In this document: positions 6,291-57,612 of the stretch, in pieces | How positions within the stretch are numbered: position 1 is the stretch's first letter | Layout: each line of letters begins with the position of its first letter | Assembly: GCF_000499845.2 (NCBI RefSeq) | Contig: NC_023749.2 | Coordinates: 25,599,321-25,663,320, forward strand | Length of the DNA stretch: 64,000 bases | Direction: 5' to 3' | Source: Phaseolus vulgaris | Lineage: Eukaryota > Streptophyta > Magnoliopsida > Fabales > Fabaceae | Notes under the pieces: model-generated | What the model was told of the DNA's origin: nothing | Seen by the model: the letters and a program-made list of their open reading frames with translations, nothing else | Databases searched by the model: none | Translations under genes and position numbers: made by a program

Positions 6291-7792
6291 TTAGTCTTCA
6301 GCGGGAACCACTTTTCCATCCACTACCTCGTTATCAAGAGACACCATGTTGAGGTCCAGGTCGGGGAACAAGCAGGCAAATTGTTCCCGCGCAGCTTCGA
6401 ATCCAGCAGCCAGAATTTGAGCAGAGTTCAGCTTGAGTTCTTCAATCTGCTTCTGAAGTTCCTCAATCCGTTTCTTGAGATCTTCAGTTTGCCCTTTCAG
6501 CTCCTTATTTTGTTGCTCCAGCTCTCCAACCTGTTTCTTGAGTTGTTCATTGGTTTCTTGAGCCTGGAGAAGGTCGTCAGCAACCTTCTTGGATTCTGCT
6601 TGCGCTTGTCCCAATTCGGCTTCAGCGAGCTCAGCCATGGCGTCATCCCTCGCCTTTTCCACCTTTCCAAGGAGGGTCTCTCGGTCGGCTGACCTTTGCT
6701 CCAATTTCTTCACCTTGACGGCGTCAGTTTTTATGAGAGCCTCCAGGTCAGCCACCTTGACGCGATAAGGAACAATCTTGCTCTCCAGTTCAATTTTTTC
6801 TTGAGCCAGTTGCTGCACCTTATGGCGGAGATCAGTGGCCTCCTTGCGTGCCAATCTGAGCTCAGTGCTCATTGCGTCTTCTACTCGGGAGTGCTCAATC
6901 TCCGCGAGTGTCAAGTTGAAGGACAACTTCTCCACCTCAACCTTCATGGTGCTGTTCTCTGTTCTGAGGTTGAAGAGGTCGTCCTGGAGCTTCCTGGTGG
7001 AGCTCTGCACCGCCCTAGTTATGATGGCGGGAATGTCTTCTGCTATTGTCTTCAGCTTAGCAGATAGAGGCTCCCACATCCTCGTGACCTCGAGAGGGAG
7101 GTTTGCGGCTTGGAGAGGCGCTGGTGGGGCCTGTTGTTGGTTTCCGTCGCCACCTTCTTTAGTTGGTTCTTCAATGGGTACTTCTGCTCGTGGTGGCGAC
7201 GTCGGGGACTCGGTGATCAAAATCGGAGAGATGTGGGCAACCTCATCCCCGATTGGAGCGGCATCCGCAGCTGAGGCGTTAGAAGGAGGACCCCCTCCAG
7301 CTGATACATATGGCGTGGAGGCGCTTGGGGGGTCCTCCAAGAAATTGTCTTCAGCGGCCTCGACCGCGGGTGGCGCAGTTGCCAACGGAATGGCTTGGAC
7401 TGGGGAAGCGGGAGCTGGTGGAGATGGCATTGTTGGAGGTGGAGCAGGCGTGGATGGCGGTGTTGAGATTGGAAGAGGGGGTGGGGCAGACGGTGAAGAA
7501 GGTGCCACCCTCTTCCTCTTTGTAACGAGGCCATCTTCGGTGACCTCGTCATCTTCTTCCTCCTCCTCGTGGACTATCTGGGGAGCTTTTCTCTTAGGCC
7601 TTTTGAGGACAAGCTTCTTACGTTGGGCGGCGGGCTGGACATCGGAGGGAGCTGGGCCCTTAGGTGGCGATCGACCCTGGGTGACGGCGATCTCCACCAC
7701 CGAATTCGGTACTGTTTGAGAGCCCGTCGCCAGCCCGTGGGTTCGGGCGAGCGCCCTCAATTCAGCGAGCATACCCTTGCCCAACATGTTAT
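6291..7792 (-). CDS. Antisense gene of A, last exon: Pro-rich and coiled-coil protein
   Basis: Read on the - strand, this exon begins at an AG acceptor (7794-7793), codes D-N-M-L-G-K at its start and ends with the stop at 6291. The ATG at 7782 or an upstream ATG could also start a separate ORF. Parts in order: a short Leu/Ala-rich start, a basic KRPKRK patch, an acidic run, a second basic TKRKR patch, a Pro/Ser/Ala-rich linker of about 150 residues, then about 250 residues of heptad-rich coiled coil. The end is a conserved tail (G-F-E-A-A-R-E-Q-F, then F-P-D-L-D). It is open throughout although the sense gag-pol is broken. Function is unknown. The basic patches suggest the nucleus and the coiled coil suggests self-association. 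It joins in frame to the exon ending at 7970. Confidence 0.82.
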
Positions 7793-7969
7793 CTGCATAG
7801 AACGAAAATGCATGGGTTAACTCAGAGAGAAAATAAGTGCATAAGGCAGTATGCAGCAAAGCAGATGATCAGTGCAGAAAAATAAAACCAAAGTCTTGCG
7901 CATAACGCACAAGACGCCCAGAGACAGTTAAACAGAAGCAGTATTAAAACAACAGTTTAAATGTTCTAA
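7793..7969 (-). other. Predicted intron 2 of the antisense gene (A), 177 nt
   Basis: On the - strand the donor is ATAG|GTTAGA and the acceptor TATGCAG|ATAAC. Removing it joins the two ORFs in frame (phase 1, forming an Asp codon). The same borders and phase occur in B, E and the second F copy, with G and F also matching in phase. Without splicing the first ORF stops at 7966-7968. Confidence 0.75.
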
Positions 7970-8730
7970 CCTATTCGAATTTCGAGTTGGTCCTCGTAGA
8001 ATTCGAAGCAGATCAGGGTGGTGGTAAGGAAAGTGATGTTGGCATCCGCCACCCTTTTCCAAAAAAGGCAGAGATCTCTGTCCAACGCTCCCATGCTATC
8101 AGGACTTCTGGGTCTCCTGAAGCAGCTCTTGGACTCTTTCTTCCCCTTGTCCACCCAGTACAAGGGGAAGCCATCGAGTAGGGAGGCGTCTTTGTCGTTA
8201 GGGCGCACTTGGATGAACTTCCCTTTCCAGTCTTTATACGATTGCTGGAAGATGGCGAAGATTGACCTCCCAGCAATCGCATTCAAGCTAACCCACAGGC
8301 GGTCTCCTGGGTGCTTGGCTTCAAAGAGAAACAAAAATACGTCTACAGATGCGGGCAACCCCAGATGGTCGCACATCACTTGGAACGCTCGCACAAACGC
8401 CCAGCTGTTGGGATAGAGCTGGGCGGCGGCGATGTTGAGCTCGGTAAGGAGCTCCCTTTCGAAACGGGTGAAAGGGAACTTGAGCTTCACCTTCTTGAAT
8501 AAGGTTGTGTAGACGAAGCAGAAGGGCCCGTCAGCGCTCACCTTATCATCAGCACACACGGGCAGATCGGGGGGGCAAGTTGGAGTCGCCTGGGCCAGGT
8601 TGGGGCGGGAAGGTGTAGGCCTCTCAGCCTGGGAAGATGAAGCACCGCGTGCTCGCGGTGGGATGAGTGCTTGAGAAGAGGGGTGTCGCGATGAAGGAGG
8701 AGGATTCGGGGTGATCTTTGAGCGGGTCAT
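7970..8730 (-). CDS. Antisense gene of A, first coding exon: Transposase_28-like (gypsy-type) domain
   Basis: Begins at ATG 8730-8728, eight bases after a TTTGCAG acceptor. The start is Ser/Pro-rich. The core matches what I know of Pfam Transposase_28 (putative gypsy-type transposon domain): a basic LRFPFTRFERELL-like segment, then Q-L-x-P-N-S-W-A-F and a leucine-rich helix with F-L-F-L-F-E-A-K. No biochemical role of this domain is known to me. The exon has 761 nt against 943 nt in B and E because an in-frame 183-bp block is missing after about residue 50. The ORF would run four more bases to a stop at 7966 if unspliced. No stop interrupts it. Confidence 0.8.
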
Positions 8731-15777: not shown

Positions 15778-16018
15778 GTAGGGAAAATCGCCCTTTGCTT
15801 GCCTTCTCTTTGTTTATTTTTTAATCGTGCTTTCTTTGATTCATGCATGCAATGCTTGTCTGCTTTAATTTCTATACTTGCTGTTGATCTGAGGATTTGC
15901 CTGAGTGGTAGAGTTGACGTCCTGTACTTCGAATTTCTGCGTATTGCCATATGCATTTGGTGCTTCGTTCTTCATTGATATCAGTCCTAACCTCTGTTAC
16001 CTGGTTTGTTTGGTGCAG
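15778..16018 (+). other. Predicted intron 2 of the antisense gene (G), 241 nt
   Basis: Donor G|GTAGGG and acceptor TTTGGTGCAG|CATCAG. Removal joins the two coding parts in phase 1. Confidence 0.6.
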
Positions 16019-16111
16019 CATCAGTGATGGACCCCACAACGCGAGTTGAACTGGCTAGGTCCTTGAAGGCTCGTCTTGACGCGAAGTCTGCAAAGGGTGG
16101 CGCCTCCAGTG
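16019..16111 (+). pseudogene. Antisense gene of G, last exon, truncated
   Basis: After the acceptor, about 30 codons remain (V-M-D-P-T-T-R-V-E-L-A-R-S-L). Sequence then switches to the chromovirus LTR at GGAAGGGAC. The Pro-rich and coiled-coil parts are lost. Confidence 0.65.
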
Positions 16112-28081: not shown

Positions 28082-29544
28082 CTAGTCTTCAGAAGGAATG
28101 ATCTTCCCCTCCACCACTTCGTTGTTTAAAGACACCATGGAGAGGTCCATATCAGGGTATTGGCAGGCGAACTGCTCCAGGGCGGCGTCAAACCCAGCAG
28201 CGAGGATTTGGGCAGAGCTCAGCTCGAGTTCTTCAATCTGCTTCTTGAGCCCCTCGTTCTGCTGTTTTAGTTCTTCAGCCCTCTCCCGAGCTTGAAGAAG
28301 GTCTTCAGTAACCCTCTTGTTCTCCGCCTGCGCTTGGGCCAGCTCTGCGGCGATCCCTTCGTTTTCCTTTTTGGCCTCGGCGAGCTTAGCCATGGTGTCA
28401 TCTCTCTCTTTTTCAGTTTTCCCCAAGAGGACATCCCGATCTACGGACCTCTTCTCAAGGTTTTCTACCTTGGCGACATCTGCTTTAATCGACGCCTCCA
28501 GGCCCGCCACCTTGAGACGGTAGGGGACCAATTTGCTCTCCAGCTCAATCTTCTCTTGAGCTAAGAGGTGCACCCTATGGCGTAGATCGGTGACCTCCTT
28601 GTGCGCCGCCCGCAGCTCGGTGCTCATAGCATCCTCCAGTCGCGAATGATCGATCTCCGCCAGCATAAGGTTGCAGGACAACTTCTCCGCCTCGATCCTT
28701 ATTAGGCGATTCTCCTCTTGGAGCACGGAGATGTCATCCTGGAGTTTCTTGCTGGAACTCTCCACAGCTTTTGATATGATGGAGGGGAAATCCTCTGCCA
28801 TCATCTTGAGTTTTGCTGAGAAGGGTTCCGACACCCTTTTGACCGCGAGGGAAAGGTTTGCTCGTGGAAGCACTAGGGGAGCCTGTTGCTGGTTCTCGCC
28901 ACCACCTTCTTGAATTGGTTGGTGAGTTGGAGCTTCTTGGCGTGGTGGTGACGAGGGGGATTCGGTGATGATGATGGGTGAGTTGTGAGCCCCTTCATCC
29001 CCGCCTGGTGCAGCTTCCGCAGTTGAGGCTGTTGAAGGAGGACCCCCTCCAGCAGATACAAATGGCGTGGAGGCGCTTGAGGAGTTCTCCATGAAGTTAG
29101 GCTCAGTAGCCTCAATCACGGGGAGTGCAGCCGCCAAGGGAACTGCTTGAACCGGCGGTGTTGCAGCTGGCGGAGAAGTCGGTATCGGAGTGGGAGTTGG
29201 TGGTGGGGACGGTGTTGATGTTGGAGGAGGAGGTGGAGCAGGTGGTGAAGAAGGCGCCACCCTTCTTCTCTTGGTAATGAGGCCGTCCTCAGTCGCCTCA
29301 TCGTCTTCTTCTTCATCCTCATGGACCACCAGAGGGGTTTTCCTCTTTGGCTTCCTAAGGATGAGTTTTTTACGTTGTGGGGCGGGCAGGGCCTCTGAAG
29401 GAGCTGGGCCTTTAGGGGGCGATCTGCCCTGGGCAGCGGCGATCTCCACCACCGAGTTGGGCACAGTCTGGGAGCCCGACGCCAACCCATGGGCTCGGGC
29501 GAGCGCCCTCAATTCAGCCAGTTTTCCTTTGCCCAACATGAGAT
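28082..29544 (-). CDS. Antisense gene of B, last exon: Pro-rich and coiled-coil protein
   Basis: Open from the acceptor TATGCAG|ATCTC to the stop at 28082, about 487 codons. Order on the - strand: D-L-M-L-G-K start, RKPKRK basic patch, acidic D/E run, TKRRR basic patch, Pro/Thr/Ser/Ala linker rich in P-P-T-P-type repeats, then a long heptad coiled coil and the conserved G-F-D-A-A-L-E-Q-F tail. Homologous to exons in A and E. No stop or frameshift, although both broken regions of B gag-pol are nearby. Confidence 0.85.
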
Positions 29545-29733
29545 CTGCATAATACAAAGGTATACAGGTCAGCTCAAAGAGAAAGATAAACACATGAGTA
29601 GATATGCAAATGAGGCAAACAAGTGATGCAGAAAATAAAAACCAAGTCTTGTGCACAACAGACAAGATGCCTAGCAACAGTTAACAGAGGTACAGCACAG
29701 GGCAATGACTTAGATGTTAAGGTAAGCTCTAAC
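29545..29733 (-). other. Predicted intron 2 of the antisense gene (B), 189 nt
   Basis: Donor GCATAG|GTTAGA, acceptor TATGCAG|ATC on the - strand. Phase 1, identical to A and E. Confidence 0.75.
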
Positions 29734-30676
29734 CTATGCGAGCCTCGAGTTGGCCCTCGAAGAACTCAAAGGAGATGATTGCGGAGGTAAGAAAGGTAAT
29801 GTTCGCGGCTGCCACGCTCTTCCAGAAGAGGCACAGGTCCTTGTCCAAGGCGCCCATGTGGTCAGGGCTTCTTGGCTTCCTGAAGCTTCCCTTGGAGTCT
29901 TTGTTTCCCTTGTTTACCCAGTACAAGGGAAAGCCGTCGAGCAGCGAAGCGTCCTGGTCGTTTTGGCGGACTTGGACAAATTTGCCTTTCCAATCCTTGT
30001 AGGATTGTTGGAAGATAGAGAGGATCGACCTCCCAACAATCCCGTTCAGGCTCACCCAAAGGCGATCCCCAGGGTTCTTGGCCTCGAACAGAAAGAGGAA
30101 CACGTCTACCGAGGCCGGTAGTCCCAAGTGCGCGCATATGATCTGAAACGCCCGCACGAATGCCCAGCTGTTGGGATGGAGCTGGGCGGCGGCGATGTCG
30201 AGCTCGGTTAGTAGCTCCCTTTCGAAACGAGTAAAGGGAAACCTAAGTTTCACCTTCTTGAATAAAGGGGTGTACACAAAGCAGAACAACTCGTCGTTGT
30301 TCCCTTTGTCGTCTGCACAAACTGGCACGTCGGGGGGGCAAGGTAGCACCATCAGCTTGTCGTCAGGCTCCTTGTGGAATGAAAGGTTGGGCTCGTCCCC
30401 TTTCTTCAATCGAAGCACCGCCAGGGGAGAGTTTACTGAAGAAGTCTCCTTCAGCAAAGTCGAGGTGGCCCAGGGGTATAGCTTCTTGTAGTCGGGGGAA
30501 GGAATGGAGGCACCTCCGGCGATGGGTGGAGTTGCCTGAGCAAGGTTGGGATGAGAGGTTGCAGGCCTCTCAGCCTGGGAGGAGGAAGCACCAGGTGCTC
30601 GCGGTGGGTTATGAGCTTGAGATGGAGGGTTTCGTGACGAGGGAGGAGGATTCGGGGTGATCTTTGAACGAGCCAT
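29734..30676 (-). CDS. Antisense gene of B, first coding exon: Transposase_28-like domain
   Basis: ATG 30676-30674 lies eight bases after the TTTGCAG acceptor. The exon has 943 nt, exactly as in E. It starts M-A-R-S-K-I-T-P-N-P-P-P. A Ser/Pro-rich N-terminus of about 65 residues precedes Y-P-W-A-T and R-F-P-F-T-R-F-E-R-E-L-L. Q-L-H-P-N-S-W-A-F-V-R-A-F, then F-L-F-L-F-E-A-K and G-F-P-L-Y-W-V follow. These match my memory of the Transposase_28 family, found in plant gypsy-like elements. Molecular role unknown. Confidence 0.85.
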
Positions 30677-35394: not shown

Positions 35395-36160
35395 ATGTCC
35401 ACCAACCCATCTTCCTCCCGAGTGAGTCACAAGGACCTTTATCCCTGGGCTTCAAGTGAACTCCTCGACGAGTACTCTTCCTTACTTTCTACTAGGGCCC
35501 TAAGGGAGCACGTGGGGGAGGCGTGCTCCTACGACCATCGTGCCTTCGCAAAGAGGCACGATGATGACATCGTCGTGCTCCCTTGTTCCATGGGGGAACC
35601 GGTGTGCGGGGATGAACGATCCAATAACGGGGTCCCCTTTTTCTATTTTTACCAAGTAGTTTTTAAGTGCGTCGGCGTACGCCTTCCCTTTTCCAAATTC
35701 GAGAGGGAGCTGTTAACGGAGATGAACACCGCTCCAGCCCAACTGTACCCTAACAGTTGGGCCTTCGTGAAGGCCTTTGACATTTTGTTTGGCTTCCTTG
35801 GATGTGCACCTTCTGTAGACATTTTTCTTCACTTCTTTGAGGTGAAAAGGCAAAGAAACAACCTTTGGGTAACTCTTAGCAATGTCCCTGGTAGGATTCT
35901 TTTGACTCCTTTCTAGCAAGCCTTCACAAGGTGGAAAGGCAGGTTCTTTAAGGTATGCTGTTCCAGCTTGGCGCCTTCCGCTCTAGATGGCTTTCCTTTG
36001 TACTGGACAAAGGACGCCAGGGCCTTGAAATCTAAATCCCTTAAGAAACTGTCTTCAAGGGATCAGGAAGCTTGCAAGATCCTGGCGGGTGTTGGAGGAT
36101 TTGATGCGGCTGCTTTAATAAGCTTGGAGTATAATGCCGAGCTTCTGGAAAGATATATAT
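35395..36160 (+). pseudogene. F-type antisense gene, first coding exon (one stop)
   Basis: Starts M-S-T-N-P-S-S-S. Carries L-Y-P-W-A-S-S-E-L, R-L-P-F-S-K-F-E-R-E-L-L, Q-L-Y-P-N-S-W-A-F-V and F-L-H-F-F-E-V-K, the Transposase_28-like pattern, closest to the G copy. A TAG at 35914-35916 stands where G has CAG (Gln). The frame then continues past G-F-P-L-Y-W to 36160, where ATAT|GTGCGT is a donor in phase 1. No clear 5' UTR intron was found in this copy. Confidence 0.78.
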
Positions 36161-36247
36161 GTGCGTGAGGCTTTCCTTATGACCTTCCCACTTCTTGTTG
36201 GACCTCTTGTATGATTTTTCTAAACTTTACTCCTTTCTTTCACGCAG
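36161..36247 (+). other. Predicted intron 2 of the F-type antisense gene, 87 nt
   Basis: Donor T|GTGCGTGAG and acceptor CTTTCTTTCACGCAG|G. Shorter than in other copies but the phase is the same. Confidence 0.55.
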
Positions 36248-36348
36248 GTTCAAAGATAAACGACCATCAGAGGACGCTTCTGACTCGGGCTTTGCGGTTC
36301 GGAGACGAGGCTTCTTCGTCATATTGCTCAAACTCTGGGGGCCACTGA
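36248..36348 (+). pseudogene. F-type antisense gene, short last exon
   Basis: About 33 codons (K-I-N-D-H-Q-R-T-L-L) end at TGA 36346-36348. No coiled coil follows, so the gene is either truncated or naturally short in this subfamily. Confidence 0.45.
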
Positions 36349-37418: not shown

Positions 37419-38382
37419 ATGGCTCGTACAGGGGCCATACCTGCCCCCTCCCGAAACCCTCCTCCAAAATCTCGCAAACAACCTTCGTCAGGAAACCCCT
37501 CCACATCTCGTAACCCACCTAGGGATCCTGCCATCCTTTCAAACTGGGCTCAGAGGCCTGCGCCCTCTCGTCCTAACCAATCGCAATCAACTCCCCCACA
37601 AACTAGTGCCACCACACGCCCCATTCCTGACTACAAACTGTTGTACCCATGGGCTCCTCCAGCTCTGCTGAACGAGACTTCCTTGATTAACTCTGAGGCC
37701 GATATTCTTCGCTTGAGAGATAAGACCCACCTCACATTCCATAAGGAGCATGACGACAAGGTTGTTATTCGTCCTTGTCCTCCCGGGGAACCTGTTTGTA
37801 TTGATAACGATGGCAACGATGGCCACCCTTTCTGCTTTGTCTATGCAACCGTGTTTAAGAAGGTTAAGCTCAGGTTCCCCTTTACTCGCTTTGAGAGGGA
37901 GCTCCTGACCGAGCTTGATATTGCCCCTGCCCAGCTGCATCCCAACGGCTGGGCGTTTGTCAGGGCATATCAAATTGTTTGTGCGCACCTAGGCCATCCA
38001 GCCTCTGTAGACGTGTTCTTATTTCTGTTTGAGGCCAAAAACCCGGGGGACCGCCTATGGGTAAGCTTCAATGGGATTGCTGGGAGATCCATCCTTTCCA
38101 TTTTCCAACAATCTTATAAAGATTAGAAGGGTAAGTTTGTTCGTGTTTGCTGTAATGATCAGAGTCCCACACTTCTTGATGGGTTCCCCTTGTACTGGGT
38201 CGACAAGGGAAAAAAGGATTCCCAGGATCATTTTCGGAAAGCTAGGAGTCCAGAGAAGATGGGGGAGCTCGATAGAGACTTGTGCAACTTCTGGAAGGAA
38301 GTTGCCTCCACCAATACCACCTTACCCACCTCTTCAATTATCAAGTTCGAATTCTATGAGGATCAACTAGACTTTTACATAG
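37419..38382 (+). pseudogene. Second antisense gene in F, first coding exon (A/B/E type, one stop)
   Basis: Begins M-A-R-T-G-A-I-P-A-P-S. Contains Y-P-W-A-P, R-F-P-F-T-R-F-E-R-E-L-L, Q-L-H-P-N-G-W-A-F-V and F-L-F-L-F-E-A-K. A TAG at 38124-38126 replaces a conserved Trp (S-Y-K-D-W). The same frame then runs to the donor ACATAG|GTCTAT at 38382, identical in place and phase to A, B and E. The upstream acceptor seems lost (CTACAA where others have TTTGCAG). Confidence 0.78.
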
Positions 38383-38543
38383 GTCTATCCCTCCACTCCA
38401 CCTGGATTTTTCTTCTTATGCCAAGTCTGTTTTACTTCTTTATCAAATTTGTTCGTATTACACTATCCTGCGCTCACTCTTGTATTGCTAATTGCCCTTA
38501 TCTGTAATTGGATTGATTTGTGAACATTGATCACTTCGCGCAG
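38383..38543 (+). other. Predicted intron 2 of the second antisense gene in F, 161 nt
   Basis: Donor ATAG|GTCTAT, acceptor TTCGCGCAG|ACACAATG. Phase 1, forming Asp as in the other copies. Confidence 0.7.
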
Positions 38544-39711
38544 ACACAATGCTGGGAGGAGATCATATGGCCAGACTGCGTTCTATAGTCAAACGCCACA
38601 AACTCGCTGCGGGTTCTCAAACCGTCCCGAATTCTGTAGCGGAAGCTGCTGTTGCCCGAGGCGAGCTTCCTCCCGTGGGCTCATCTTCCCTTATCGCCCC
38701 TCCTGTCCCTGTGAGAAAGAAGCTGCCGCCAAAGAGGGTTAAGAGAAAGAATCCCATAATGGTGTCGGATGAGGAGGATGACGAGAGCACTGAAGATGGG
38801 CTTATCTGTAAAAGGAAAAGGGCAACCGTCACCGAGCTACCCGCAAACGAGAGTACGGGCCCAGATTATGCAGAGAATCCCCCCAGCGTCTCTACACCTT
38901 TTGAGAGTGCTGGGGATGCTCTACCATCAAACACCTCAACTGCTGGAGGCGTTCTGGGCAGACTGCGGACATTCAGTGGTTTCCCCAGCCTGTAGTGGAG
39001 TCAGACGTGCCGCCGCCATGTCCTGATGTTCCCCTGGTTGTCCATACTTATGAAGGCGGCTGCGAGAACCAATCCCCGACTCCTCTTCCAATCCCTGCTC
39101 TTCCAGCCCCTGTCGAGGAGGTCTTGAAAGCCCACGCCGCTTATCTTAGCGCTATGACTACCGAGTGCATAGAGAAACGCCTTTACCGAATGATGGGCGA
39201 GGCTTTAAGGGACTCCTTGAGCCAGTATGAATCCAAAGCCAGTGCTGCGAAGGACCAAGTCCAACAACTTAAGCGTGATCTCACAATGCGGGGATTGGAG
39301 TTTTCGCGGTTAGAAAATGCTCTGAAGGAAGAGTTGCGGAGCGAACGTAAAAACAGCGCTGAACTAGACAAAAAGCTCAACGCCAAACTCTTAGAGGTCA
39401 CCGAACTCGAGGGCAGACTCGTGCATCAGCAGGAGAAGATAACGGACCTTGAGGAGACTCTCAAGGCCAAAGGGGCCAAAGCGGATGAGCTCGAGGCCAA
39501 GTCAATTGAGAGGGAAGATCTGCTGGGTAAAATCAAAGCTGACGTGGATCAAAAAGCCAAGGAACTGAGCGAGAAAGATAAGGAACTGAACGAATCTGCA
39601 GCAAAGCTTGCCCAGGCGCTTGAGGAAAACGAAAAGCTGAAGAAACAAAGTGAAGAACTCGACCTCAGCGCTGCAAACGTTCTGACTTCCGGGTTCATTA
39701 CTAGACGATGA
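38544..39711 (+). pseudogene. Second antisense gene in F, last exon (frameshift, 3' end lost)
   Basis: D-T-M-L-G-G start, basic RVKRK patch, acidic E-D-D-E-S run, KRKR patch, Ser/Pro linker. The first frame stops at 38993-38995. The coiled coil continues in another frame (38995-39711) with K/E-rich heptads. It ends at A-N-V-L-T-S-G-F, and sequence then switches to inverted gag-pol linker sequence. The tail seen in A, B and E is missing. Confidence 0.75.
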
Positions 39712-44787: not shown

Positions 44788-45578
44788 TGATCCTGCCTGT
44801 TGACCGGAACGCTGGAGAATGCCTCGTCAAAGGATCGACGTGCGCACCGCTTCTCACCTCCGTTCCTCTCCGGGATCTACTTCAAGAACCTGCAAAGAAA
44901 CGACACGGCGCCGCTGCGGCCGATCGCACTCCGACGCTCAAGTCAGTGACGGTATCACCAAATACTAAGAACTAGAACCGTGCAAATCCTCTCACAATCA
45001 GCTCTATCACTCGCAAGCGTAAAGTGTATGAACTGAACGTGCGTACCTCAGAAAGTCTGTTAAGAACTCTTATATACCTGGTGGTTTTCTCTCTCCTGGC
45101 AGTTACAGACTTGGACACGTGGCTCGCATCCAACTGTACACGTGCCATCATCTGGAGGCTCCCTGACTTGGCGCCGCTTCTGCTCTCATTATGACTAAGT
45201 TACTTATGCATGGTACTGCCCAGTGCATAGCTAACTTAGGAGTGCGATCTCTACTGGAACTGGCGAGTTAGGGCCTTCATACACCTTCCCTGTGGTCTCG
45301 CCGGCCGCCTTCATAATCTGGTTCTCCCTCATCTTCGACGATGTGCTTGTTCTGGCGATCTCCGACTGCTTGGTCGCCTGGGTCTGCATCTGGCGACTTC
45401 ATCCTCAACCTGGCGATCGCCTATTCTGGTAAGCTGGAGATCGGAACACGCCAACTTAACAATCGGCGACTACACGTGCTTCCCGACTTCCTTCCTAACT
45501 GCCAACCTGGCGCCTTGTCAACACGCCTACACTGTAGCAGGGTGCCACGTCATCATACCCGACCACCAGGGCGGTACA
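44788..45578 (-). repeat. 3' LTR of element E (791 bp)
   Basis: On the + strand TGATCCTGCC...GGTACA. TATA box on the - strand at 45070-45077. About eight substitutions from the other LTR by eye. Confidence 0.95.
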
Positions 45579-45594
45579 CAAGCCCCCCAGTCTT
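45579..45594 (-). promoter_or_regulatory. Polypurine tract of E
   Basis: CAAGCCCCCCAGTCTT, the reverse complement of the tract in A and B, beside the 3' LTR. Confidence 0.92.
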
Positions 45595-45932: not shown

Positions 45933-46165
45933 GTAATTACTTTCCTTCATCTGCTGGGTTTCCTTACATTTTCACCGATTTGCATCATCCTGTAACTGCC
46001 TGGTGCATACGCTGTGGGTCGTTTTTCCATTTCTCTTCTGCGTAACTTAGGGCTTTGTCGATCGTCGCAACGAACTCACATTCGTTCGTCGTTTCACCTT
46101 CCTTCCATGACCGAGTCAGCCTTCGTAACCCTCCTGATCATTTTTCCTTTCTTCTTCCTTTGCAG
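45933..46165 (+). other. Predicted 5' UTR intron of the antisense gene (E), 233 nt
   Basis: Donor CATCGAAAG|GTAATT and acceptor CTTCTTCCTTTGCAG|CTGCC. Same length as in A and one base longer than in B. Confidence 0.7.
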
Positions 46166-46173
46166 CTGCCATC

Positions 46174-47116
46174 ATGACTCGCACCAAGATTACCCCGAAC
46201 CCCCCTCCATCAGCACGAAACCCTCCTTCACAAGCACACGACTCAACCCAAGTTCGTGGCGCTTCCTCTTCGCAGGCTGAGAGGCCTGCATCTTCCCAAT
46301 CTGCTCTGGCCCAGGCGACTCCACCTAATGCTGGAAGAGCCCCCGTCCCTCTGCCAGACTTCAAAACTCTATACCCCTGGGCCACCCCAACCCTTCTGAA
46401 GGAGACCTCGTCGGTGAACACTGCGGGAGCAGTTTTGCGGTTGACTAAGGGGGACGAGGCCTATCAATCGTTTCACAAGGAGCACGACGAGAGGATGATG
46501 GTGCTGCCTTGCCCCGTCGCTCTGCCAGTGTGTGCTGATGACAAAGTAAGCGCCGACGGGCCCTTCTGCTTTGTCTATACAACTTTCTTCAAGAAGGTCA
46601 AGCTCAGGTTCCCTCTCACCCGATTCGAGAGGGAACTTTTGACCGAGCTCAACATTGCTGCCGCCCAGCTTCACCCCAACAGCTGGGCGTTTGTTCGAGC
46701 CTTTGAAATAACGTGCGACCACCTGGGGTTGCCCGCGTCGGTGGACGTGTTTTTGTTCCTTTTTGAGGCCAAGCACCCAGGAGACCGCCTGTGGGTCAGC
46801 CTGAATGCAATTGCTGGGAGATCCATTTTTACCATCTTCCAGCAATCGTACAAAGACTGGAAGGGGAAGTTCATCCAAGTACGCGCAAACGATAAAGACA
46901 CCTCCCTTCTTGATGGCTTCCCCTTGTACTGGGTGGACAAGGGGAAAAAGGAGTCCAAGAGCTGCCTCAGGAGGCCCAGAAGTCCTGATAGCATGGGAGC
47001 TTTGGACAGAGACCTCTGTCTATTCTGGAAGAGGGTGTCGGATGCCAACATAACATTCCTGACCCCCACCTTGATCTCCTTCGAATTCTTTGAGGACCAG
47101 CTAGAATTCCAAATAG
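46174..47116 (+). CDS. Antisense gene of E, first coding exon: Transposase_28-like domain
   Basis: ATG at 46174, eight bases after the acceptor. Codes 314 residues plus the first base of the next codon. N-terminus of about 65 Ser/Pro/Ala-rich residues, then Y-P-W-A-T-P-T-L-L. The core has R-F-P-L-T-R-F-E-R-E-L-L, Q-L-H-P-N-S-W-A-F-V-R-A-F, F-L-F-L-F-E-A-K, G-R-S-I-F-T-I-F-Q-Q-S-Y and G-F-P-L-Y-W-V. This pattern fits Pfam Transposase_28 by memory. If unspliced it ends at a stop at 47119-47121 that lies inside the intron. The gene runs against the element's own transcript. Confidence 0.87.
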
Positions 47117-47298
47117 GTTAGGACATCCAAACTGTTGCTTTGATACTGCTTCTGATATTGCTTCTGGGCGTCTTGTGCGATACGCACAAGACTTTGGTTT
47201 TACCTTTTCTGCATATACTACCTGTTTTGCTGTTTTATTACCTCATACACTTGTCGTTTTCTTCTCTGAGCTAACTCATGCGTTTTCGTTTCATGCAG
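47117..47298 (+). other. Predicted intron 2 of the antisense gene (E), 182 nt
   Basis: Donor AAATAG|GTTAGG, acceptor CGTTTCATGCAG|ACAATATG. Phase 1; joining creates Asp then N-M-L-G-K. Open reading continues for 503 codons after it. Confidence 0.78.
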
Positions 47299-48812
47299 AC
47301 AATATGTTGGGTAAAAACATGCTCGCCGACTTAAAGGCGCTCGCCCGAAACCACGGGTTGGCGACCGGTTCCCAAACGGTGCCAAACTCGGAGGTCGAGA
47401 AGGCCATCGTTCATGGGCGATCACCGCCCAAGGAACCCACCCAGCGCAAGAAACTGGTCCTTAAGAGGCCTAAGCGAAAAGCCCCTCAAATCGTCCAAGA
47501 GGAGGAAGAAGAGGACGACGAGGTCACAGAGGATGGCCTAGTCACGAAAAGGAAGAGAGTGGCACCATCTTCTCCACCTGCTCCACCCCCTCTTCCAACC
47601 TCAACACCACCATCAACGCCTGCTCCTCCTCCCTCATCGCCAACACCACAAGCCCCTTCATCACCAGTCCAGGCGACTCCACTGGCCACTGCGCCACCAG
47701 CAGCTGAGGCTCAAGAGCCAAATTTTCTGGAGGACCCCCCAAGTGCCTCTACGCCACACATCTCAGCTGGAGGGGGCCCCCCTTCAAACACTTCAGCTGC
47801 AGAAAACGTTCCAATCGGGGATGAGGTTGCTCACGCCTCTCCAATCCTGATTACCGAATCCCCGATTGCGTCGCCACGCCAGGAAGCAAACACTGAAAAT
47901 CCTGCTAAGGAAGGTGGCGGCGAGAACCCTCAACAAGCCCCCCTGGCGCCTCTCCAAGCAGCGAACCTTTCCCTCGAAGTCACAAGGATGTGGGAACCTC
48001 TGACTGCCAAACTCAAAACCATAGCAGAGGATATCCCATCGATCATAACGAGGGCTGTGGAGAGCTCCACCAGGAGGCTTCAGGACGATCTTTACAACCT
48101 CAAGACCGAAAATAGCACTATGAAGGTCGAGGTGGAGAAAATGTCATTCAGCCTGACGCTCGCAGAACTTGATCACTCCCGAGTGGAGGATGCCCTGAAT
48201 ACCGAGCTCAGGCTGGCGCGCAAGGAAGCTGCTGACCTTCGCCGCAAAGTTCATGATCTTGCCCAAGAGAAAGTTGAGCTAGAAAGCAAAATCGTGCCTC
48301 TGCGCACCAAGGCGAGCGACCTGGAGGCTCACATTCAAGCTGACGCCGCCAGGGTGCAAAAACTGGAGCAGAGGTCGATCGACCGCGAGAAGCTACTTGG
48401 GCAAGTAGAAAAAGCGAGGGACGACGCCATGGCTGATCTCGCCGAGGCCAACAAGGAAAAAGGAAAGATGGCTGCCGAGTTGACCCAAGCTCAAACGGAA
48501 TCCAAGAAGGTTACTGACGACCTTCTTCATGCTCGAGAGACCAACGAACAACTCCGAAAACAGGTCGAAGAGCTGGAGCAGCAGAACAAGGAGCTCAAGA
48601 AACAGGTTGAAGAACTTCAAAGGCAAATTGAAGAACTTAAGCTAAGCTCTGCTCAGATTCTGGTTGCTGGATTCGAAGCCGCTCGGGAACAATTCGCATG
48701 CCTATTCCCCGATCTCGACCTCAGCATGGTGTCGTTGAACAACGAAGTAGTAGATGGAAAGGTCGTTCCCGCCGAAGGCTCAACCAACTCCACCCCGTCT
48801 GCTACTTTATAA
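47299..48812 (+). CDS. Antisense gene of E, last exon: Pro-rich and coiled-coil protein
   Basis: Runs from the acceptor to TAA at 48810-48812; with the first exon the product is 818 residues. N-part D-N-M-L-G-K-N-M-L, basic R-K-K-L-V-L-K-R-P-K-R-K, an E/D run, then T-K-R-K-R. A Pro/Thr/Ser-rich linker (about 47560-47960) follows, then a coiled coil of about 230 residues (48000-48690). The tail includes F-E-A-A-R-E-Q-F-A and F-P-D-L-D. The two basic patches flank an acidic run and look like nuclear localisation signals. Alternative: ATG 47304 (or 47175) could start an independent protein. Confidence 0.87.
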
Positions 48813-49389: not shown

Positions 49390-50110
49390 CGAGACGAGAA
49401 GGATTTTATCTTGCCTATGCTCGCACGTAAGCGAGAAGGTCTTTTAACTCGCCTGAACTCGCTCAACGGCGAGAAGGACTTTATCTGGTGCCTCAACTTG
49501 CCCAGGGTGTACATCTCCTCCCCCCTGGATGCACTGAGGACCTTTTCTTTCTCTCGCCTGCACTCGCTCGACGGCGAGGAGGTCTTTAACTGGCCTTAGC
49601 TCGCACAACGGCGATAAGGACTTTATATGGTGCCTCAACTTGCCCAGGGCGTACATCTCCTCCCCCCTGGATGCACTGAGGACCTTTCTCTTTCTCGCCT
49701 GCGCTCGCTCAACGGCGAGGAGGTCTTTTAACTTGCCTCGACATTGCCCCAGGAGTTACATCTTCTCGCTCCCAGAAACACGGAGGACTTTTTCTCTTTC
49801 TCGCCTGCACCCGCTCGACGGCGAGGAGGTCTTTCATCTGGTGCCTCCGATCGTCGAAAGACGATGAGGACTTTAAAACTTAACTGGTGCCTCCAATCGC
49901 CGAAAAACGATGAGGACTTCAAACTTAACTGGTGCCTCCGATCGCCGAAAGACGATGAGGACTTTAAAACTTAACTGGTGCCTCCAATCGCCGAAAAACG
50001 ATGAGGACTTCAAACTTAACTGGTGCCTCCGATCGCCGAAAAACGATGAGGACTTAAAACTTAACTGGTGCCTCTAATCGCCGAAAAACGATGAGGACTT
50101 AAAACTTTTT
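49390..50110 (-). repeat. Hypervariable tandem repeats of E
   Basis: From 49838 to 50110 about six units of 45-47 bp (TGGTGCCTCC...CGATGAGGACTT). From 49390 to 49830 there are mixed longer units with CTCGCCTG...CTCG and CACTGAGGACC. The families match A and B, but the 47-bp unit is expanded here. Confidence 0.85.
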
Positions 50111-50349: not shown

Positions 50350-50886
50350 TTAACTATAGTACAACTTCAGGTGTGTGGCGTTCCAGGTGCGAGGGATCGC
50401 CCCTCCTTCCAGCGTTTCTAAGCGGTAGGCCCCGTTCCCGAGCGCCTCGGTTATTCTGAACGGTCCAGTCCACTTGGGTGACAATTTATTCTCCATCTCG
50501 TACTGGTGGGCCTTCCTCATCACCAGATCGCCCTCTCTAAACTGCCTTGGCATCACCTTAGAGTTGTATCTTCGTTCGACCCTTCTCTTCACAGCTTCAG
50601 CTTTCAACCTCGCTTCTTCCCTGACTTCATCTAGCAGATCCAGGTTCAGCCTTCTCTCCTCATTCGAGTCTTCCTCTACGAAGTTCTGGAATCTCGGCGA
50701 GCTCTCCTGGATCTCCACTGGAATCATGGCGTCACACCCATAGACCAAGCTAAACGGGGTCTCATGGGTTCCTGACTGCTCGGTGGTGTGGTACGCCCAG
50801 ACTATACGGGGCACCTCCTCAGCCCAACTTCCCTTGGCTTTCTCAAGCCTTCTCTTCAAACCTCTCAACAACACCCGATTAGCTTA
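50350..50886 (-). pseudogene. Integrase C-terminal part of E, after an in-frame stop
   Basis: A TAA at 50886-50884 follows the catalytic Glu codon directly (A has TCA there). The frame is then open to the stop at 50350 and covers the integrase end that binds DNA (W-A-Y-H-T-T-E-Q-S-G, L-S-P-K-W-T-G-P-F). If translated to the TAA only, integrase would lack its end. Confidence 0.88.
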
Positions 50887-53460
50887 TTCCACCTGGCCAT
50901 TCGTCTGAGGGTGCTCGACGGATGCAAACACTTGTTGAATTCCAACCCCTTCACAAAGCTTCTTCAACAGGTGGCTTGCAAACTGCGTCCCATTATCTGA
51001 TACCAGGCGCTTAGGCACTCCAAACCGGCACACGATGTTCTTCCATACAAAACCTTCGATCTTGTGTGCGGTGATCTGGGCCACTGGTTCTGCTTCAATC
51101 CACTTGGTGAAATACTCAATCGCTACCACCAAGTACTTCATCTGCCTGATCGCCAGCGGGAAAGGTCCCAGGATGTCGATTCCCCAAGTATGAAACGGCC
51201 AAGGGCTATAGATCGACTTCAACTCCTCGGGAGGTGCCTTGTGCCAATCGGCGTGCTGCTGGCATTGTTTGCAGCACTGGGCATATTTCTTGCAATCTTC
51301 TCTCATGGATGGCCAATAGTAGCCTGCACGGAGAGTCCTCGCGGCCAGAGCTCGACCCCCGACGTGGCTTCCACATATTCCTTCATGGAGCTCCGCCATA
51401 ATTCTCGTGCACTTCTCGCCGTGTATACATTCCAGGAGTGGGTGAGTGAACCCAAACCTGTACAGATCGCCATCAATCAATGTGTACTTGCTGGAATTTT
51501 TCTTTACCTTCCTAGCTTCTGTTGGATCCAGCGGGAGGAGGCCATCTGCCAAGCACCGCTTGTACTGTGTTATCCAAGTGTCTGGCTCATGGGTGGCGCA
51601 GACCTGCATCACGTCCACCTTCTCTCCTCGACATGCTCTAATTCTCGGCGATCTCAGAGTTTCTTGCGTCAAAGACTTATGGCTTCTCGCTGCTCTCTCC
51701 GTCGACTTGCTTATCTGAAGGACCAGGTGATCTGCTACAAATGCCCTCGGCGTCTTCAGAGTTTCTTGAATCACCGTCCTCTGCCTACCCCCCTTGCCTG
51801 AGCTGGCGAGCTTAGCAAGCAAGTCAGCTCGGGCATTCTGCTCTCGGGGCACATGTACTACTTCAAAAGAGGCAAAGGAACTCTTCAATTCCTGCACATA
51901 CGCCAAGTAAGCCGCCATTTGTGGATCTTTAGCCTGGAACTCGCCTGTTACTTGCCCTGTGACCAGCAGCGAGTCACTCTTAGCCATCAGCACCCTAGCT
52001 CCCATCTCCTTGGCCAGCAAAATCCCGGCGATCAGCGCCTCATACTCTGCTTGATTGTTGCTGGCTTTAAAGGCAAACCTCAAAGATTGCTCGATCAGCA
52101 CGCCGTTGGGTCCTTCCAATATGACTCCAGCACCGCTGCCCTGCTGGTTCGACGATCCATCCACCAAGAGTACCCAACGGAAATCGTCTCCTTCAACCCG
52201 CGTCGCCTCTGATGAGAGCTCGACCACAAAATCTGCAAAGATTTGCCCCTTGATCGGGCCTCGGGGCTCATATTTAATGTCGAACTCTGACAACTCCACT
52301 GCCCACTTCACCATTCTTCCCGCAACGTCAGGTTTCTTCAAGACCTTCTGGATGGGAAGGTCAGTCATCACCAGTATTGTGAAGCTGTGGAAGTAGTGGC
52401 GCAACCTCCTCGCCGAAAACACCACAGCCAGCGCAGCCTTCTCCAGGGCCTGATATCTCGTTTCTGGGCCCTGCAACACCTTGCTCACAAAATAAATAGG
52501 CTTCTGAGCCTGATCTTGATCCTGGGCGAGCACCGCACTCACCGCCCTCTCAGTCACAGCGAAGTACAACCTGAGAGGGATTCCCGCCAGCGGTTTGCAC
52601 AGAACCGGCGGGCTCGCCAGATACTCCTTCAGCTTAACGAAAGCTTCCTCACACTCTTTCGTCCAAGCGAACTTGTTATTGCACCGCAGATACTGAAAAT
52701 AGGGATGCCCCTTTTCTCCGCTAGCTGACACGAAGCGAGATAGGGCTGCCATCCGACCTGTTAGCTGCTGGACTTCTTTCACCGTAGCCGGGCTTCTCAT
52801 CGCCAAGATGGCGGCACACTTGTCTGGGTTAGCTTCTATTCCTCTTTCAGTCAAGAGAAAACCCAAAAATTTTCCAGCCTCCACGCCGAAAATGCATTTC
52901 TCCGGGTTGAGCTTTAACTTGAACTTGGCGATCGTCGTGAACAATTCTTCCAAGTCTGCAACGTGCTTGCTCTTCTCCTGCGAGGTCACGACCATGTCAT
53001 CGACGTAGGCTTGCACGTTCCTTCCCAGCATTGGTGCAAGTACTCGATCCATCAACCTCTGGTACGTGGCCCCCGCGTTCTTCAGCCCAAACGGCATCAC
53101 CTTATAGCAGTAGCACGACCTCTCCGTCATGAAGGCTGTCTTTTCTTCATCCATGGGATGCATCTTGATCTGATTATAGCCCGAGAAGGCATCCAGGAAA
53201 CTCAGCAGCTTGCACCCTGCAGCACTATCAACCAGGGCATCAATGCTTGGTAAAGGATACGAATCCTTTGGGCAAGCTTTATTCAGATCGGTGAAATCGA
53301 CGCACATGCGCCATTTCCCATTACTCTTCTTCACCAGTACGACATTTGCCAACCATTCAGGGTACTGGACTTCCCTGATGTGACCTGCAGCGAGGAGTTT
53401 CTGTGTTTCGTCCCTGATCGCCTGCCTCCTCTCCTCGTTGAATTTTCTTCTCCTTTGTCA
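50887..53460 (-). pseudogene. RT, RNase H, archaeal RNase H and integrase core of E
   Basis: Same register as gag, open from after the TGA (53460-53458) to the TAA at 50884. RT catalytic Y-V-D-D at 53007-52996. RNase H about 52600-52230, archaeal RNase H about 52190-51800. Integrase zinc site about 51440-51240, D-I-L-G-P-F near 51180, V-S-D-N-G near 51000. All catalytic residues seem present. The register would be one polyprotein of about 1830 codons but for the two stops. Confidence 0.92.
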
Positions 53461-55803
53461 CACTGGTCTCACCATGTTGTCCATCGCCAGATGATGGCAC
53501 AAGAAGTCGGGATCGATCCAGGGCATGTCCGAAGCGGACCAAGCAAACGCGTCCAGATGCCGCTCAATCACCTTGGCGATCTGGTCCTGGAGATCGACCT
53601 CCTGGGATCTTCCGAGCTTGAAGATTTTCCCTCCGATCTCCTTCTCGAGCCACTGCTCAACAGGTTTGGGCCTGGATTCTCTGGCGATCACCGCCCTGGC
53701 GATTCCCTGTTCCCTTGCTTCCTCAGGGCGATTCTGTGCCTCTTCCTCCTCCAGGCCAGCATTCCTCTCCCCCAGCTCAGCATCCACCATTTCCACGTCT
53801 CTTCCGGCGGCCTCCTCTGTTACCGGCGGTCTGGGCTTCACACCGGGAGGTGGGGTGGTCGTTACATAACTCACTGATCTTTTGTTTTTCAGGCTATTCT
53901 CATAGCACTTTTTCGCTTCTTTTTTATCAGACTTGATCGTGATCACCACCCCTTCCATGGACGGCAACTTCACCTTCATGTGCCGAGTCGACGGAATGGC
54001 ACCTATCCTGGTAAGAGTGGGCCTTCCCAACAGGATGTTATACGCTGAGGGGGCGTTTACGATGAGGTACTTGATTTTCTCCATCCTCGACCCAGCCTCA
54101 TCTGTAAACGTGGTTCTCAGCTCGATGTACCCCCTGACCTCCACCTGGTCGCCAGCGAACCCATATAAGCACCCTCCATAGGGCCTTAGCTGGTCAAGGG
54201 GTAATTCCAGCTGCGTGAAAGTCGGCCAGAACATCACGTCTGCCGAGCTTCCTTGGTCCACCAGAACTCTGTGGACCTTCCTTCCCGCCGTGATCAGCGA
54301 AATAACTATGGGATCGTTGTCATGAGGCACAACGTCCCGAAGATCCTGCTTTGTGAACGTGATGTCCACTTCCGGCGAGTGATCTTCAAACATGTCCACT
54401 GCCATCACCGATCGCGCATACTTTTTCCTCTGCGATGCAGTGCATCCACCACCTGAGAAACCCCCTGCAATGGTGTGGATCTCCCCGTGGATAGGCATCT
54501 CGTGTTGCTGGGCTTCTCCACCTGCTGGCTGGGAACTCGACGCTCCCCCCGTCCTTCTATCCAGCAGATAGTCATTTAGGAACCCGCTCTTAACCAGATC
54601 GTCGAGCTGGTATCCTAAAGACAAACACGAGTCCAGGTTGTGGCCAAAGCACTGGTGGAACTCGCACCAGGCGTCCGGCTTTGACCCCAGCACCTTGTCG
54701 CCCACCTTCTCAGGCGCCTTCAACCTAGCAGATATGTTAGGGATAGCGATCAGGTCCGCTAGTCCCATGACGAATTTGTGCTTAGGCGGGCGATTGTATT
54801 CCCGGCGTGCTGGTGGTTGGCGTGCTGGTTGTTGGCGCGCTTGGCTTCTTCCCTTATTTCTCCTATCGTAAGGATAGCGAGTCCTTTGGTCTTTTCTGGC
54901 CGCCGCCGCCGTTTCCAGCACCCTCTGCGGCTGGATCCTGGTCTGGGCGCGTGGCCTGGCGGGAGCCACGCTGCCTCTCTTCTCGACGACTTCACTCTCG
55001 TCGGCGATGTGGGCCACCGCAAGTCGCCTGACTTCAGCAAACGTCGCTAGATGAGCCCTAATCAAGGCCTCGCAGAATGGCCCTGGCTGCACGCCCTTCT
55101 TGAAGGCATAGACCAGCATTTCTTCATCCTTGGCCGGCGATCTGACCATCTGCGCTCCGAAGCGATTGAGGTAGTCTCTGAGGGACTCCCCATGGTACTG
55201 CCTTATATCAAACAGATCATAGGACACCCTGGGCGGTGCCTTATTCACAATGTACTGCTCGACAAAGATTTTCGAGAATTGTTGAAAATTGGTTATGTGG
55301 CCATTAGGCAGGCTCACAAACCACTCCATCGCCGTTCCCTGGAGCGTGCTCACGAACATCTTGCAGTAGACGGCGTCTGACCCTCCCGACAGCATCATCT
55401 GCGTGTGGAACGTGGTCAGATGAGCCTCCGGATCCTCCACGCCGGTAAAAACAGCTTTAACCGGAACCACGCTCGTGGGAATTGGCGTGTCGGTAATCGC
55501 CTGAACAAAAGGCATTGGGAACACACGAGGTGGCGTCGACGGTGCCACCTCTTCAGCGGAAGAACGTCCTTGCTGCTCCTGAAGAGCTCGACGCAGCTCC
55601 TCCGTTACCTTGCTGAGCTCCTCGTTCCTGGCGCGAGAGGCGACCAGGTCCTCATGTATCCTCGCCTGCTCTACGCGGGAGGCTTCCACAGTTGCCTGCA
55701 ACGAGCGCATCATCTCTGCCATCTGCGCCATGGTCATGGCGGCGTCGCCTTCAGCAGCGACAGGAGCCACGGGACTGGAACGATTGCTTCTCATCTTTCT
55801 CAT
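53461..55803 (-). pseudogene. gag and protease of E (ends at in-frame TGA)
   Basis: Start taken at ATG 55803, the first codon conserved with B (M-R-K-M-R-S-N-R-S); an in-frame ATG at 55845 is not shared. N-terminal coiled coil, gag core (about 55420-55090), basic linker with a small Q-P-P-A-R-Q duplication near 54830. CHHC knuckle near 54670, protease V-D-Q-G-S-S near 54260, LLGRPT near 54030, acidic linker. TGA at 53460-53458 where B has CGA. Confidence 0.92.
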
Positions 55804-56143
55804 TAACTTCAGCGAACCACAGGAATACAGCGAACAACACCTCAACCACGATCGAATCAGCGATCAATCGCAGAAAACTCAAAAAACTGCACAAGAACTC
55901 AAGAACACCGCAAACCTTCGCAGAAAACCACAAAAGAACTCGAACTTCCACCAAACAGATTGCGCGCAAGCAACAAAAGACCTCACTCCACCGATTGAAA
56001 ATCAAACAGACGGTGCAAAACGCAAACTCACCGAACGAAACTCAAAGAAACTGCGAACGACGGTTGCACCAGCACACAACCACGCCGAAAACCTCGAAAA
56101 CTTCCACGAACTCACGCTGTGGATGGGAGCAAGTTTTACACGG
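55804..56143 (-). other. Untranslated leader of E
   Basis: Homologous to B 21001-21399. A-rich on the + strand, no conserved ORF. Confidence 0.6.
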
Positions 56144-56162: not shown

Positions 56163-56953
56163 TGATCCTGCCTGTTGACCGGAACGCTGGAGAATGCCTC
56201 GTCAAAGGATCGACGTGCGCACCGCTTCTCACCTCCGTTCCTCTCCGGGATCTACTTCAAGAACCTGCAAAGAAACGACACGGCGCCGCTGCGGCCGATC
56301 GCACTCCGACGCTCAAGTTAGTGACGGTATCACCAAATACTAAGAACTAGAACCGTGCAAATCCTCTCACAATCAGCTCTATCACTCGCAAGCGTAAAGT
56401 GTATGAACTGAACGTGCGTACCTCAGAAAGTCTGTTAAGAACTCTTATATACCTGGTGGTTTTCTCTCTCCTGGCAGTTACAGACTTGGACACGTGGCTC
56501 GCATCCAACTGTACACGTGCCATCATCTGGAGGCTCCCTGACTTGGCGCCGCTTCTGCTCTCATTTTGGCTAAGTTACTTATGCATGGTACTGCCCAGTG
56601 CATAGCTAACTTAGGAGTGCGATCTCTACTGGAACTGGCGAGTTAGGGCCTTCATACACCTTCCCTGTGGTCTCGCCGGCCGCCTTCATAATCTGCTTCT
56701 CCCTCATCTTTAGCGATGTGCTTGTTCTGGCGATCTCCGACTGCTTGGTCGCCTGGGTCTGCATCTGGCGACTTCATCCTCAACCTGGCGATCGCCTATT
56801 CTGGTAAGCTGGAGATCGGAACACGCCAACTTAACAATCGGCGACTACACGTGCCTCCCGACTTCCTTCCTAACTGCCAACCTGGCGCCTTGTCAACACG
56901 CCTACACTGTAGCAGGGTGCCACGTCATCATACCCGACCACCAGGGCGGTACA
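56163..56953 (-). repeat. 5' LTR of element E (791 bp)
   Basis: TGATCCTGCC...GGTACA on the + strand, followed by AAATC. TATA box on the - strand at 56444-56451 should drive the genomic RNA. Confidence 0.95.
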
Positions 56954-57612
56954 AAATCAAAGAAAATAATAAAACTAAAAATAAAAATAAAAATAAAATA
57001 AATAACTATTAAAAAAAATGAAACAAAAATAAAACAGAAACTAATAGTAATAAATAATAAATAAATAAGAACTATGTAAACTCTAAATAAACAACTTAAG
57101 CTAAACGTAAAAATAAAATATGATCAAACAAAATCCAAATCAAAATAAAATAAAAATATAATCAAAACAAAAATAAAAAAAAAAAAAAAAATTACAGTAA
57201 AAAAACTACGTAAACAATATAAAAACAAAAAAATAAAGAATAAAATAAAATATAACAAAACAAAATACAAATAAAATAAAATAAATAAAGTAAACAAATA
57301 AAAAAAACTTAAAAGAAAAAATATTAACATAAAAATAACAGTTTTACAAAAAAAAAAAAAAAACAAACATATTCACATTAAAAAAAAACTTTGTACGTAT
57401 TCAAAACTAGAGAAAAAAACAAAATCTTTACAAAATAATAAAAAAATCTAGAAAACAAAAAAACAAAATTATTCACATCTAAAAAGAAAAACAAAATATT
57501 TACAAAAATATTCAAATTAAAAAAAATAAAAACTAAAAAAAAAATTATTCACATAAAAAAAAAATAGTTAGTATATTCACAATATTTAGGAAATTATACT
57601 CAACAAATCAAA
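56954..57612 (-). other. Non-coding interior of D (right part, leader side)
   Basis: Extremely A-rich on the + strand with AAATAAAATA-type words. No coding content. It continues the left part across insertion E. Confidence 0.75.

Follow-up and report, generated by a model that had tools for sequence, protein, structure and literature searches.

A putative two-exon gene on the antisense strand of Retand/Tat-type retrotransposons in common bean

Antisense frames of the element copies

The window, a stretch of 64,000 nucleotides from Phaseolus vulgaris (contig NC_023749.2, positions 25,599,321 to 25,663,320), contains six copies of a gene region, here called A, B, E, F1, F2 and G, that lies on the strand opposite to gag-pol in Ty3-gypsy retrotransposons. 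In element E, bounded by long terminal repeats (LTRs) at 44788-45581 and 56163-56956 that are 98.9% identical, two plus-strand open reading frames (ORFs) occupy the region between pol and the 3' LTR (46138-47121 and 47094-48812) and overlap by 28 nt. The first carries the TRP28 domain (PF04195), and the second encodes basic patches, a Pro-rich stretch and a coiled coil. It is predicted, with high confidence, that these antisense frames are the two exons of one gene, spliced into one protein. This reading is backed alike by base composition and indel pattern, by the position of the branch site and the conservation of the borders, by selection on either exon, and by single-chain relatives and public gene models. 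A conserved splice joint of one gene was also what the preliminary description of this DNA had proposed, and it is upheld here. From the lineage name given in that description, together with the antisense TRP28 frame, E would be a Retand/Tat-type element.

Exactly six TRP28 loci were found in the window by tblastn, such that none is left out of the comparison, and all six exceed the Pfam cut-off of 26.2 bits for PF04195 (30.2, 32.0, 33.6, 46.7, 31.7 and 38.6 bits). The E exon-2 frame returned only sub-threshold domain matches, mostly to coiled coils. The start of the E antisense protein, previously placed at 45933, is moved to the ATG of the TRP28 protein at 46174. F2 is decayed: its exon 1 contains a TAG, and the frame of its exon 2 is broken. 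Coordinates are collected in Table 1.

Table 1. Positions of the antisense gene copies and of the accompanying parts of element E within the window
Feature	Position	Strand	Remarks
E 3' LTR	44788..45581	-	partner 56163-56956
E gag-pol	50350..55863	-	three consecutive frames; strand opposite to antisense gene
E exon 1, TRP28 (PF04195)	46174..47116	+	last nt is first of predicted split codon; PF04195 30.2 bits; dN/dS 0.09-0.13 with E pairs
E predicted intron	47117..47298	+	182 nt, GT-AG, 42% T, CTAAC at -25
E exon 2	47299..48812	+	basic patches, Pro-rich stretch, coiled coil, C-terminal motif; stop counted in
A exon 1	7971..8730	-	internal deletion near N-terminus relative to B and E
A predicted intron	7793..7970	-	178 nt, TTAAC at -25
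A exon 2	6291..7792	-	
B exon 1	29734..30676	-	
B predicted intron	29545..29733	-	189 nt, CTGAC at -25
B exon 2	28082..29544	-	
F2 exon 1	37420..38382	+	one in-frame TAG
F2 predicted intron	38383..38543	+	161 nt, TTGAT at -28
F2 exon 2	38544..39711	+	broken frame (38531-38995 and 38905-39711)
F1 gap	36161..36247	+	87 nt, GT-AG, without YTRAY; then 32-codon stub
G gap	15778..16018	+	241 nt, GT-AG, CTAAC at -29; then about 30 codons, then other repeat

Borders, composition and selection at the gap

A GT-AG gap between a TRP28-like and a Pro-rich/coiled-coil ORF had been described for all six copies. The GT and AG borders are indeed present in six of six, with a split codon of phase 1 in each as the frames were set, and the second ORF stands in A, B, E and F2, where 161-189 nt separate the two frames; F1 and G, by contrast, continue into stubs of 32 and about 30 codons. 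The donor ATAG/GT (the slash marking the border) is common to A, B, E and F2, and the acceptor reads TGCAG/A in A, B and E and CGCAG/A in F2. The residues across the predicted joint are EIRI/D/NMLGKG (A), EARI/D/LMLGKG (B), EFQI/D/NMLGKN (E) and DFYI/D/TMLGGD (F2), and the predicted spliced nucleotide joint of E is ATAG/ACAATATG, which would give a joined protein of 314+1+503 = 818 codons. These borders, the common phase, the range of 87 to 241 nt for the gap and the length of the E fusion all agree with the preliminary description, as do its gap coordinates for B and E; the A intron starts at 7970 rather than 7969. GT-AG is by itself weak evidence, because the ranges scanned would allow an in-frame GT-AG join in 3 ways in A, 7 in B, 9 in E and 5 in F2. 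The proposed border pair is the sole in-frame join common to these four copies, and a second, at -82/-28, is common to A, B and E only. In A, B and E a stop in the exon-1 frame lies at intron position +2, and ORF 1 therefore runs one codon beyond the donor; at least one stop in this frame falls inside each of the six gaps. An inverted repeat, GTCTTGTGC...GCACAAGAC, lies at about 47170-47195 in the E gap, perfect in E and imperfect at the matching places in A and B, and may represent either a hairpin or chance.

The composition of the gap is intron-like. T content is 42-43% in all six gaps, compared with 15-28% in the exons flanking the gap of A, B, E and F2. Measured over 300 nt on either side, the end of exon 1 holds 21-30% T in the six copies and the head of exon 2 holds 15-20% in A, B, E and F2; a stretch of equal length past the acceptor, mostly lying beyond the stub, holds 36% T in F1 and 40% in G. 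A change-point fit on T content, made blind to GT and AG, placed the transitions no more than 10 nt from the acceptor and no more than 31 nt from the donor, each in five of six copies (offsets at the 5' and 3' sides: A +9/-4, B -66/+10, E +16/-4, F2 +24/-22, F1 +31/-7, G -15/-7). Indels were counted on a nucleotide alignment with stiff gap costs, restricted to the segments adjoining the joint, and the result depends on both of these choices. On this basis, the last 600 nt of exon 1 contain no indels in any of the six pairs among A, B, E and F2, whereas the same pairs together show 31 in the gap, of which 26 have lengths not divisible by three. The first 480 nt of exon 2 contain none in A/B, one of 24 nt in each of A/E and B/E, and 8 to 9 in each of the three pairs with the diverged, decayed F2. 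A free alignment with cheap gaps had also produced gaps that were not multiples of three in the exons (the N-terminal deletion of A, and repeats), and it was replaced.

GT-AG borders and U-richness, both seen in all six gaps, are features of plant spliceosomal introns of the U2 type, for which the branch-site consensus is YTRAY. This motif is present in five of the six window copies (F1 being without it), with the candidate branch A at -25 in each of A (TTAAC), B (CTGAC) and E (CTAAC), at -28 in F2 (TTGAT) and at -29 in G (CTAAC). Among 845 control AGs of these regions, YTRAY occurs at -18 to -40 in 13.7% and at exactly -25 in 0.36%.

Both sides of the gap appear constrained. The ratio of nonsynonymous to synonymous substitution rates (dN/dS) in exon 1 is 0.11 for A/B, 0.12 for A/E, 0.09 for B/E, 0.08 for B/F2 and 0.13 for E/F2, and in exon 2 it is 0.16 for A/B, 0.10 for A/E, 0.18 for B/E and 0.27 for A/F2, with F2 represented in exon 2 by its first 149 codons only. 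These are the nine usable pairs, those with saturated dS (A/F2 for exon 1; B/F2 and E/F2 for exon 2) having been set aside. The antisense strand is therefore under selection as protein in both exons.

Genomic copies, relatives and gene models

The 537.7-Mb assembly was searched three times, yielding 68 loci: the best 8 of 122 matches to E exon 1, the best 30 of 296 to a probe of the joint, and the best 30 of 150 to F1 exon 1. These are best-scoring loci and not a random sample; three of them (L001, L033 and L039) are E, B and F1 of the window itself, and one (L009) was set aside as a deletion, leaving 67. GT stands at the mapped donor in 65 of the 67 (not in L043 or L068), the head of exon 2 was found in 65 (not in L003 or L043), and AG precedes it in 64 of these 65 (not in L007); in six further loci (L069-L074) both borders are retained in all. 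Free variation of the borders alongside intact ORFs, the pattern named in the preliminary description as evidence against splicing, thus did not occur. In the B family, the 28 loci share a mean pairwise intron identity of 0.85 and a mean modal-dimer frequency of 0.81 in the interior, with 6% of interior dimers invariant, against which GT and AG are each present in 28 of 28. The F1 family of 29 loci retains GT in 28 and AG in 29 with an interior value of 0.82, 22% of interior dimers being kept as well as the donor and 10% as well as the acceptor. In the E family of 8 loci (GT 8, AG 7) the borders are uninformative because the interior is itself conserved at 0.93. YTRAY at -25 is found in 28 of 28 B-family loci, in three forms within the consensus, and in 8 of 8 E-family loci, or 36 of 36 altogether. 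The T content of the intron lies between 0.40 and 0.50 across 65 loci.

These loci also bear on whether translational recoding over the gap, by frameshift, stop read-through or reinitiation, could take the place of splicing. The 28-nt overlap of the open frames in E would be compatible with such a mechanism. However, gap length falls into all three classes modulo 3 (39, 14 and 12 of the 65 loci), the six window gaps hold stops in the exon-1 frame, and recoding would leave the U-richness and the branch site unexplained; it is regarded as extremely improbable. The predicted gene was further examined for intron loss, with a probe of 94 residues over the spliced joint, for which 150 matches were scored from 5,533 candidates; counts are lower bounds. 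No exact loss of the intron was seen among the listed matches. The single match covering residues 1-93 is L009 (G000:C4:14787226-14787474), in which a deletion removes the donor together with the end of exon 1 and spares the last intron bases, and the other 12 listed matches starting before residue 37 all retain the intron (L010, L015, L019, L022, L026, L036 and L069-L074). On the reverse strand, the gap of A, B, E and F2 starts with CTGC and has TAAC or AGAC at its end, and the lack of exact loss is in keeping with an intron that is never in splicing orientation within the genomic RNA. As a separate matter, the deletion in L009, and not splicing, turns the two frames into a continuous open one of 633 aa.

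Related proteins place both halves in one chain. Nine proteins passed a search that selected long chains, and among them P0101 (755 aa, P. coccineus, NCBI), P0102 (601 aa, ENA) and P0103 (733 aa, JGI) combine TRP28 with a hydrophobic stretch where the joint lies and, at the C-terminus, a motif (for example GFDAALEQFAC...EVVDGKIVP) resembling the end of exon 2 in A, B, E and the NCBI models. No relatives were found in the viral contigs or other genome contigs searched. Since P0101, P0102 and P0103 stay open through the gap, the frame may once have been continuous, with the gap an unspliced in-frame segment that later acquired stops or shifts in the bean families and left the gene split or dead, and the decay of F2 and of many genomic copies would accord with this. 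However, the low dN/dS on either side of the gap, the retention of GT and AG throughout the B family and the intron-like composition of the gap in six copies make this history very unlikely.

Among 46 NCBI P. vulgaris models counted (the short-contig entries P0045 and P0091 excluded), 10 contain the exact joint I/D/xML. The remaining 36 comprise 13 that begin ML.., 6 that begin at the exon-1 start but use other donors, 2 with a later entry into exon 2, and 15 that are otherwise different, one of which (P0059, ...ALKKYI/D/SMSGKD) has, on visual inspection, a joint of this kind in a different family. The upstream exon-1 donors of P0006, P0015, P0075 and P0084 skip most of TRP28, and these models may reflect either alternative splicing or the way in which the gene finder circumvents interrupted frames. 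The 13 models beginning ML.., together with an ATG that stands 5 nt past the acceptor in A, B, E and F2, could indicate two separate antisense genes, with a transcript for exon 2 alone, translation beginning at the exon-2 ATG (MLGK...), and the gap serving as promoter or 5' leader. However, both halves occur in one chain in the three proteins above, and in the B family conservation is higher at the borders and branch site than elsewhere in the gap. Six unnamed ORFs extend upstream of the ML start, with AD in five, which fits GCAG/AY, and AN in one, and a seventh (P0093) reads ADALLGK without an ATG, as exon 2 of the F1 type also lacks one and starts SKIND. Two genes are thus considered improbable, although the exon-2 ATG may act as a second start alongside splicing.

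Several observations weigh against a single spliced gene. Plant donors prefer A at +3, and the donors of A, B, E and F2 carry T or C (GTTAG, GTCTA). The blind change-point is off by 66 nt at the 5' side of B and by 22 nt at the 3' side of F2. Shuffled intron ends give YTRAY within -18 to -40 in 18-27%, and a match over this wide range alone is therefore weak. F1 and G support the borders but not the coiled-coil exon; throughout the F1 family YTRAY is absent (0 of 29 loci), and the second exon has only 27-34 codons in 29 of 29. The open passage of P0101, P0102 and P0103 through the intron-like stretch shows one gene, but not splicing, and 36 of 46 NCBI models lack the exact joint.

The F1 family (35362-36345 in the window; L039-L068) has at least 150 matches and a short second exon, though donor and acceptor are kept; given the uniform 27-34 codons, it has multiplied with a short form of the antisense gene. 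A repeat is present in three copies (16109-17015, 59624-60483 and 63382-63879), the first of which truncates the second exon of G. Self-similar repeats also lie between pol and the antisense gene of E (49405-50107), and tandem arrays in this region are reported for about half of the elements in a survey of Retand elements (Vicient 2025, PMC11963269).

Proposed mechanism and known systems

The present data allow a model in which the region between pol and the 3' LTR carries one gene opposite gag-pol, in which two coding exons flank a spliceosomal intron that is short, U-rich, in phase 1 and bordered by GT-AG. Antisense transcription would begin at a promoter inside the element or on its LTR side; scans for promoters and poly(A) signals revealed no consistent pattern, and no consistent TATA box. 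Splicing of the antisense transcript by the host would join TRP28 (exon 1) to exon 2 and yield a protein of about 800 aa, to which exon 2 would supply basic patches resembling nuclear localisation signals (KRPKR/RKPKR and KRKR/KRRR), the Pro-rich stretch, the coiled coil and the conserved C-terminal motif. In genomic RNA, made from the other strand, the same stretch begins with CT and ends with AC and should present no intron, such that the intron would survive reverse transcription. It is possible that the protein enters the nucleus via the basic patches, uses its coiled coil for self-association and acts by means of TRP28 on the DNA or RNA of the element; a nuclear regulatory role of this kind is put forward tentatively and is rather more doubtful than not. 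An AlphaFold2 model of TRP28 from 12 sequences, with a mean predicted local distance difference test score of 51.8, tells against this last step, being too poor to support DNA binding. A profile search of the PDB with the same alignment returned 17 weak matches (best E-value 0.0028), of which those inspected, at profile positions 385-562, are coiled coil and uninformative on TRP28, because they reflect the coiled-coil part contributed by longer rows. A regulator of the type of HBZ, the antisense gene of human T-cell leukaemia virus 1 (HTLV-1), has a bZIP domain; in E exon 2 such a domain was considered and rejected, as bZIP_1 reached 19.0 bits against a cut-off of 27.6, leaving a coiled coil only.

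If this model is correct, two unexplained antisense ORFs become one protein with defined N- and C-terminal halves, which changes what to clone, localise and fold. It would also provide an annotation rule for plant elements, namely to expect that the TRP28 ORF is followed by a U-rich intron in phase 1, and a naturally occurring example of an intron outlasting reverse transcription by facing the other way. In addition, it makes testable whether the antisense RNA is a messenger or a mere source of double-stranded RNA, as a messenger is expected to be spliced.

FGENESH and GENSCAN are able to predict introns. In common bean, both programs were used on 15 Ty3-gypsy families, such as pvRetro13 and pvRetro26, each of which was predicted to have a single antisense ORF2, 211-939 aa long (Gao 2014, PMC4093653). 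These resemble the gene described here in species, strand, position behind pol and an SMC-like match, and some are of the size of the joined protein; ORF2 is there called one ORF, and the main text makes no mention of intron, exon or splicing, although a joined gene model may be implicit in it. Across Retand elements, 104 antisense ORFs in 63 clusters have been reported, 57 with TRP28 (Vicient 2025, PMC11963269). Like the bean gene, the latter lie antisense between pol and the 3' LTR and carry PF04195, and further antisense ORFs have Smc/TolA-like (coiled-coil) domains; unlike the joined bean gene, they are counted apart, and the word "intron" does not occur in the main text. A literature search, covering titles and selected passages only, found no title announcing a spliced antisense gene in such elements.

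Maize Grande gene23 is likewise antisense between pol and the 3' LTR, is transcribed from its own promoter and has a nuclear protein, according to an account that also calls for a search for antisense and spliced transcripts (PMC7264820); the likeness drawn from that account is one of place and strand. Ogre elements do contain a spliceosomal intron within the Tat lineage, but on the sense strand between protease and reverse transcriptase, whereas the bean intron is antisense and behind pol and so is not of the Ogre type (PMC6317226). In Didymium, an antisense homing endonuclease gene within a group I intron is interrupted by a 47-nt spliceosomal intron, with proof at the RNA level (PMC9548176), and thus offers a mobile-element antisense gene interrupted by an intron, as in bean, in an unrelated element and host. 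HBZ of HTLV-1 is an antisense retroelement gene with a spliced RNA and a nuclear product, but its spliced and unspliced RNAs differ at the 5' end, whereas splicing of the predicted bean intron would join two large coding halves (PMC10186651). The likeness is one of arrangement, and no sequence relation is expected. By extension, there is a little less than an even chance that, in flowering plants, Retand elements throughout the lineage have their antisense TRP28 and coiled-coil (Smc/TolA-like) ORFs spliced together as one gene in an HBZ-like arrangement, whose intron would have been kept through successive rounds of retrotransposition because the element replicates from the opposite strand.

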